Shown here in pieces: positions 21,637 to 41,445 of a stretch of DNA of 41,568 bases (position 1 is the first letter of the stretch; each line of letters begins with the position of its first letter). The notes under the pieces are model-generated. The model worked only from the letters and a program-made list of their open reading frames with translations, ran no database searches and was not told the DNA's origin. The position numbers were made by a program, and so were the translations under genes. Origin of the DNA: Deltaproteobacteria bacterium (GTDB taxonomy: Bacteria; Desulfobacterota; GWC2-55-46); the NCBI GenBank assembly GCA_016219025.1, contig JACRCM010000027.1, positions 1 to 41,568 of the forward strand, in the 5' to 3' direction.

Positions 21637-22245
21637 ATGGACAGGTCATGTTGTCTGCTCATAGTAGACGTGCAGGTCGATTTCTGTCCCGGAGGCGCGC
21701 TTGCGGTGAAGGACGGAGACTTGGTCGTCCCGGTAATCAACGAATACGTCAGGCTCTTCGGCGCGGCGGGATGCCTTATCGCGGCCACGAGGGACTGGCA
21801 TCCGGCAAAGACCGTTCATTTCGGCGGCGGAAAGTGGCCTCCTCATTGCGTCCAGGGGACGCGCGGCGCGGAGTTTCATCCGGGGCTCAGACTTCCGTCA
21901 AACGCGAGGGTTATAACCAAAGGGACGCGGCCTGACGAGGACAGCTATTCAGGCTTCGACGGCTCTGACGCATCCGGCGCAAGACTCGGCGACATGTTGA
22001 AGAAAGAGGGGGTAGGCCACGTTTTCATCGCCGGTCTTGCGACAGATTATTGCGTGCGAGCCACGGCTCTCGACGCGCGGAAGGCCGGGTTCAAGGTGAC
22101 GGCGCTCATTGACGCGATAAAGGGCGTTGACGTCAAGCCCGGCGACTCGAAGACCGCGATAATCGAGATGATAGAGGCGGGCGCGGATACCGCGACGTTC
22201 CCGGACGTGAAGAAGGCGGCGGGCCACGGGGAGGCATGTCAATGA
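21637..22245 (+). CDS. pncA: Nicotinamidase (isochorismatase fold)
   Basis: 202 residues. The catalytic triad is visible: D11 (VDVQVDF), K95 (ITKGTRPDED) and C139 (ATDYCVRA); metal ligands D53 and H55 lie in RDWHP, with H70 in WPPHC. It hydrolyses nicotinamide to nicotinate in NAD salvage; KGTRPDEDSYSGF is typical of nicotinamidases and not of other isochorismatase-like hydrolases. The stop overlaps the start of the rhodanese gene (ATGA), so the two are probably cotranslated. Confidence 0.9.
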   Translation: MDRSCCLLIVDVQVDFCPGGALAVKDGDLVVPVINEYVRLFGAAGCLIAATRDWHPAKTVHFGGGKWPPHCVQGTRGAEFHPGLRLPSNARVITKGTRPDEDSYSGFDGSDASGARLGDMLKKEGVGHVFIAGLATDYCVRATALDARKAGFKVTALIDAIKGVDVKPGDSKTAIIEMIEAGADTATFPDVKKAAGHGEACQ

Positions 22246-22572
22246 AGGCGCCGCGCATTACTAAGGAAGAGGTCAAGGCGAAACTTGACGGGAGAGAGCC
22301 GGTCACGCTCCTCGATGTCAGAAACCCGGTCGATTACGGCAACTCGAACGAAGCTCCCCGGCGCGGTGAGGATGCCGCTTGAAGGGCTTGAGGCGCGGAT
22401 AAATGAACTCGACGCGCAACGGCTCATCGTAGCATACTGCACGTGAACCGAGGAACACTCAAGCGCCCGTGCGGCGCTTATACTCTCAGGCAAGGGCTTC
22501 AAGGCTGCGATGGCGCTCCTCGGCGGGTTCAATGCGTGGGTGAACGCCGGGTATCCGGTCGAGAAGAAGTGA
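22242..22572 (+). pseudogene. Rhodanese-like sulfurtransferase: UGA at catalytic position (possible selenoprotein) and a frameshift
   Basis: Frame one (from ATG 22242) gives MKAPRITKEEVKAKLDG, then LLDVRNPVDYGNSN. At the CCCC run (22356-22359) the reading must shift forward by one base; the other frame then reads PGAVRMPLEGLEARINELD, LIVAYCT, TGA (22444-22446), TEEHSSARAALILSGKGF, LLGGFNAWVNAGYPVEKK and stops at 22572. The TGA falls where this subfamily has the catalytic Cys (YCxC...E...SAR). A perfect 7-bp stem with loop CGUGC (22461-22479) follows at the distance of a bacterial SECIS element. So UGA may encode selenocysteine. The C-run shift may be a true mutation, an assembly error or programmed frameshifting; two defects in one gene also allow a plain pseudogene. 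Confidence 0.65.
22461..22479 (+). promoter_or_regulatory. Candidate bacterial SECIS stem-loop in the rhodanese gene
   Basis: AAGCGCC pairs perfectly with GGCGCTT around the loop CGTGC. The loop starts 22 nt after the in-frame TGA (22444-22446), within the range of known bacterial SECIS elements, which carry G and U in the apical loop. A similar hairpin with loop GTG follows the UGA of the GrdB-like gene in this window. Confidence 0.5.

Positions 22573-40650: not shown

Positions 40651-40651
<1 letters not shown>
40292..40651 (+). CDS. Small secreted c-type cytochrome
   Basis: 119 residues with a signal peptide (about 1-22, ending AMA) and one haem motif CARCH (about residues 42-46). NANCARCHGVKGGGTDKGPPL and the C-terminal DVENIIFYVRAIQRDAGI are a class I cytochrome c with a likely Met ligand (DMPKIEG). 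It is exported and carries electrons in the periplasm. AAGGAGG (40277-40283) sets the ATG at 40292. The stop overlaps the next start (TGATG), coupling it to the GrdB-like protein. Confidence 0.88.

Positions 40652-41445
<794 letters not shown>

Follow-up and report, generated by a model that had tools for sequence, protein, structure and literature searches.

How is a rhodanese-like gene read when its coding sequence is interrupted twice, once by an in-frame TGA and once by a change of reading frame? Such a gene lies in the window, by which we mean the whole stretch of DNA that was analysed (41,568 nucleotides, the complete contig C138 of a MAG). The preliminary description had suggested a selenocysteine (Sec) rhodanese with a frameshift at a CCCC run, caused either by an assembly error or by programmed +1 frameshifting. 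From the ATG at 22242, overlapped by the stop codon of the preceding nicotinamidase gene, frame 0 extends over 46 codons to a stop at 22380-22382; it encodes MKAPRITKEEVKAKLDGREPVTLLDVRNPVDYGNSN and then departs from the family sequence. The family sequence resumes at 22351 in frame +1 (KLPGAVRMPL...YCT-TGA-TEEHSSARAA...GGFNAWVNAGYPVEKK) and ends at a stop at 22570-22572 (Table 1). No Rfam match was found in the window. Taken as a whole, the locus is very probably a gene of a CxU Sec rhodanese family that carries a private lesion and does not use programmed frameshifting.

Table 1. Features of the rhodanese locus in the window.
Feature	Coordinates	Strand	Evidence
Nicotinamidase/pyrazinamidase gene	21637..22245	+	NF008623, 174.6 bits (cut-off 174); adjoins the rhodanese gene in seven of nine syntenic intact loci
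Rhodanese gene, 5' part, frame 0, MKAPRITKEEVKAKLDGREPVTLLDVRNPVDYGNSN	22242..22349	+	Own-genome match to query residues 1-37 in frame 0; codon bias; aligns with 29 intact relatives
Frame lesion, net -2 (+1), one base in place of a whole codon (mostly Val) of the relatives	22350..22350	+	Codon-level comparison with relatives; change of frame in codon usage
Rhodanese gene, 3' part, frame +1, to TGA stop	22351..22572	+	Match with one internal TGA; codon bias; third-position-biased divergence from the G001 orthologue
CCCC run, proposed slip site	22356..22359	+	Sequence; family alignment
UGA as predicted selenocysteine codon, motif YCTU	22444..22446	+	TGA in aligned intact relatives, further paralogues and phylum-wide homologues; Cys codon in a few (L062, L086, L098)
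Putative bacterial SECIS hairpin, 7-bp stem, loop CGUGC, 21 nt from UGA to loop	22461..22479	+	Fold; pair counts in 38 sequences; bSECIS model (PMC13188914)

The identity of the protein was assessed on intact relatives, all 29 of which match the Pfam rhodanese domain PF00581 (L015, 53.7 bits against a gathering threshold of 22.2). The AF2 model of L015 has a pLDDT of 85.5, and among its best Foldseek hits in the PDB rhodaneses the TM-scores are mostly 0.8 or above. In this model, the strand formed by residues 63-67 ends at Tyr67, a loop opens with Cys68, and residue 70 is the Sec column. In rhodaneses the catalytic Cys sits at the opening of this loop, the position taken by Cys68. All three residues (Y67, C68 and C70, the Sec column) are invariant in the 29 aligned relatives, which places the Sec/Cys column two residues after an invariant Cys and gives YCTU in the window gene. 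An ungapped sequence alignment to 6mxv instead puts the Sec column beneath the catalytic Cys. The preliminary description had the TGA replace the catalytic Cys of the YCxC motif; the TGA itself is real, but the modelled position two residues beyond the usual catalytic Cys suggests that the UGA residue may not be a simple replacement.

CxU rhodanese selenoproteins (form 3) are listed in reviews and selenoprotein catalogues, one review naming the model NF041203 (rhodanese_LYCAU). With this model the joined window protein reaches 100.8 bits and L015 102.0 bits, both below the curated cut-off of 115, and we therefore place the window protein beside NF041203 and outside the model. All 29 relatives match it (best E 1.5e-36), the best of them probably above the cut-off. 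Judged from its sequence, the window protein is a CxU-type selenoprotein rhodanese, a kind already catalogued in bacteria. It shares with the NF041203 type the rhodanese domain, the CxU motif, a UGA followed by a SECIS-like hairpin, and the existence of Cys homologues, whereas its motif is YCTU rather than LYCAU and the window copy alone carries a frame lesion. With the single-domain rhodaneses of the GlpE/PspE type (PF00581) it has the fold and the DVR...YC loop...GG..AW landmarks in common; unlike these, the window family has a second redox residue (Sec or Cys) two positions past the Cys.

A second YCxU rhodanese group, apparently exported as judged by a signal-peptide-like N-terminus, is found in many of these genomes (L037, L039, L041, L043, L069-L077) and scores closer to NF041203. 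At one of these loci, L074 (G037:C112), two YCTU rhodanese genes lie in tandem, with extra stop codons in the upstream part of one of them, which may be degraded there.

The source genome encodes the full set of Sec-decoding components that we looked for: selA (579 bits), selB (326 bits), tRNA-Sec (71 bits) and selD (367 bits). The selD gene (L226, G000:C15:1623-2540) itself contains one internal TGA, so that SelD is probably also a selenoprotein. The closest homologues of the rhodanese, in genomes ranging from the same genus to members of the class, each have one internal TGA; in the aligned intact relatives this TGA stands in the UGA column, where YCT or something very similar immediately precedes it. 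Across the phylum, the homologues have either U or C in the Sec column; L062, from the same order (G034), has TGT. Cys forms of this family also occur in the phylum: L086, L098 and L062, with the motifs YCDC and YCTC.

The predicted SECIS hairpin consists of AAGCGCC (22461-22467), the loop CGUGC (22468-22472) and GGCGCUU (22473-22479), and folds with an MFE of -14.0 kcal/mol (z = -2.46). In the bacterial SECIS model a loop of 3-9 nt with a G in its first two positions tops a stem of 4-16 bp, at 16-37 nt from the UGA (PMC13188914); here a loop of 5 nt with G at position 2, a stem of 7 bp and a distance of 21 nt are found. Among all 1208 TGA trinucleotides of the window, only 10 (0.8%) precede a perfect hairpin with 7 bp or more and a loop and spacing of this type. 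The hairpin is retained across 38 sequences, with 89% of cells paired and compensatory changes at three pairs; its covariation score of 0.219, against 0.084 in shuffles, is reached by none of 500 shuffles, and controls in which the hairpin was slid gave far lower covariation. Read directly off the alignment, the three covarying pairs connect third codon positions, and are thus largely free of protein constraint.

The hairpin reported in the preliminary description is thus present and conserved, and homologues aligned at the TGA column have TGA or, rarely, a Cys codon (YC-x-U/C). The second UGA gene that it had taken to make Sec decoding more credible is likewise real and conserved. This gene (40651-41445, plus strand, UGA at 41158-41160) encodes a PrdB/GrdB-like reductase subunit with the motif UGLC, which passes TIGR01918 (74.5 bits, cut-off 65.45) and does not pass TIGR04483; a hairpin follows its UGA, and it is found in 15 of 20 relatives, nearly all with one TGA.

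For the rhodanese, the conservation of the column and the covariation of the hairpin rule out an ordinary stop codon or a nonsense mutation. The machinery, the conserved UGA/Cys column, the covarying SECIS and the synteny described below together argue strongly for the Sec reading of the TGA, and for the gene family we regard Sec decoding as nearly certain; at the window gene it is strongly supported by comparison, from which we infer incorporation. In the reading that we propose, a CxU-type selenoprotein rhodanese (YCTU-TEEHSSAR) would be encoded behind the nicotinamidase gene, its UGA being read as Sec by the SelA, SelB, SelC and SelD of the cell with the hairpin as the putative bacterial SECIS. 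The active-site loop would then hold Cys at the usual catalytic position and Sec two residues on, a pair that could plausibly act as a redox-active selenenylsulfide or as a persulfide/selenopersulfide carrier. The window copy would differ by one net -2 (equivalent to +1) lesion at 22350, either an error or a recent inactivating mutation.

The nature of this lesion follows from comparison with the relatives, in which a single frame runs through NSN-V-KLPG or a similar sequence. The window has NSN-(g)-KLPG, with a single base at 22350 between AAC (Asn) and AAG (Lys); as only one base stands at the Val column, two bases have been lost on balance. Codon usage switches its preference at 22350, from frame 0 to frame +1. 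The frame change of the preliminary description is therefore real, but its location at CCC-C is not: the alignment puts the break six bases ahead of the start of the CCCC run, which the family frame reads, without any shift, as the third base of CTC followed by CCC (Leu-Pro). No frameshift occurs in the relatives, all of which have full-length matches in one frame.

These relatives include nine intact syntenic loci (L015, L049-L056) in which an M16 peptidase gene lies next to the rhodanese gene or next to the nicotinamidase-rhodanese pair, nicotinamidase being present in seven of the nine. The locus of G001, from the same genus, keeps M16, M48, DUF898 and fumarase without nicotinamidase; at the class level (L057, L058) the neighborhood is not shared. 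The shared neighborhood identifies the window gene as an orthologue that has kept its ancestral position.

Programmed +1 frameshifting at CCC-C, which together with Sec decoding would give a full-length protein, is consistent with the presence of the run, with the restoration of the downstream frame by a +1 slip there, and with the coding bias that persists downstream. The shift is nevertheless absent from every relative, including the nine syntenic intact loci, and a slip at this place would yield a product one residue short, with E-A-P replacing V-K-L-P. The usual features of such sites are also lacking: CGG and CCC, at 10.4 and 13.2 per thousand in this contig, are not rare codons, and no stop is adjacent, the frame-0 stop at 22380-22382 lying seven further codons past the supposed slip codon. 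The gene prfB is a programmed +1 frameshift gene; genes of this type share with the window a +1 frame change that restores the downstream open reading frame, whereas the window site has no stop at the shift and the shift is not conserved in relatives. With the break at 22350, we consider programmed frameshifting at CCC-C extremely improbable, and we give equally negligible credence to the broader proposal that the cell really carries the shift and bypasses it by +1 frameshifting somewhere around 22350-22359, a single short gene then depending on frameshifting as well as Sec decoding for a working rhodanese. Alternatively, the downstream part could be translated alone, as a short Sec protein, from the ATG at 22372, which belongs to frame +1 and precedes the frame-0 stop by 8 nt, so that coupled reinitiation is conceivable. 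The N-terminal portion of the rhodanese fold would be missing from such a product, and a split gene is seen in none of the relatives; we hold this to be highly improbable.

The divergence from the G001 orthologue points to a recent lesion. Changes at codon positions 1/2/3 number 9/7/21, 10/5/16 and 4/7/26, a third-position excess found on both sides of the lesion, so that selection acted until recently or still acts. Coding bias and third-position divergence in both gene pieces thus argue either for an assembly error or for one recent lesion, and rule out an old, decayed pseudogene. The error anticipated in the preliminary description has to be considered together with a fresh disabling mutation, with the relatives unshifted and the lesion private. 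Most likely the lesion is one or the other, with the two about evenly balanced.

For an assembly or consensus error, with an intact gene in the cell, we see an even chance. The active site and SECIS are intact, coding bias is present on both sides of the lesion, and the source is a fragmented MAG (2.18 Mb in 170 contigs, 86.8% complete). A survey of 178 gene pairs against G006, covering 560 kb of the assembly, gave four frameshift candidates, one of them clear: a one-base shift in a PPDK-like gene (L164 near 4010, G000:C34), near an A-run close to the contig end, which suggests some consensus errors in this assembly. Another candidate (L182 near 3500) seems to mark the border of two adjacent genes. 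Against an error, a two-base loss outside a homopolymer is atypical of sequencing, and no other broken gene was found in the 41.6-kb contig. The assembly is therefore not full of indels here, which rules out an error-riddled contig. Somewhat short of an even chance is a real and recent lesion, making the gene a young pseudogene in this lineage or the lesion a variant in part of the population. The lesion is isolated, and several family members (e.g., G004, G006 and G007) yielded no TGA-type gene, so that its loss appears to be tolerated; a second disabling change is nevertheless missing, and the divergence still looks selected.

Double recoding in one gene would be new if true, and the comparison takes away its main support. 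Ordinary gene callers would interrupt this rhodanese gene at two points, the UGA and the lesion. The Cys forms L086, L098 and L062 are useful Sec/Cys exchange pairs. With this analysis the CxU rhodanese selenoproteins gain a YCTU branch that is well supported and conserved in position; its SECIS is backed by covariation, and in most of the loci examined it has an operon-like link to nicotinamidase.
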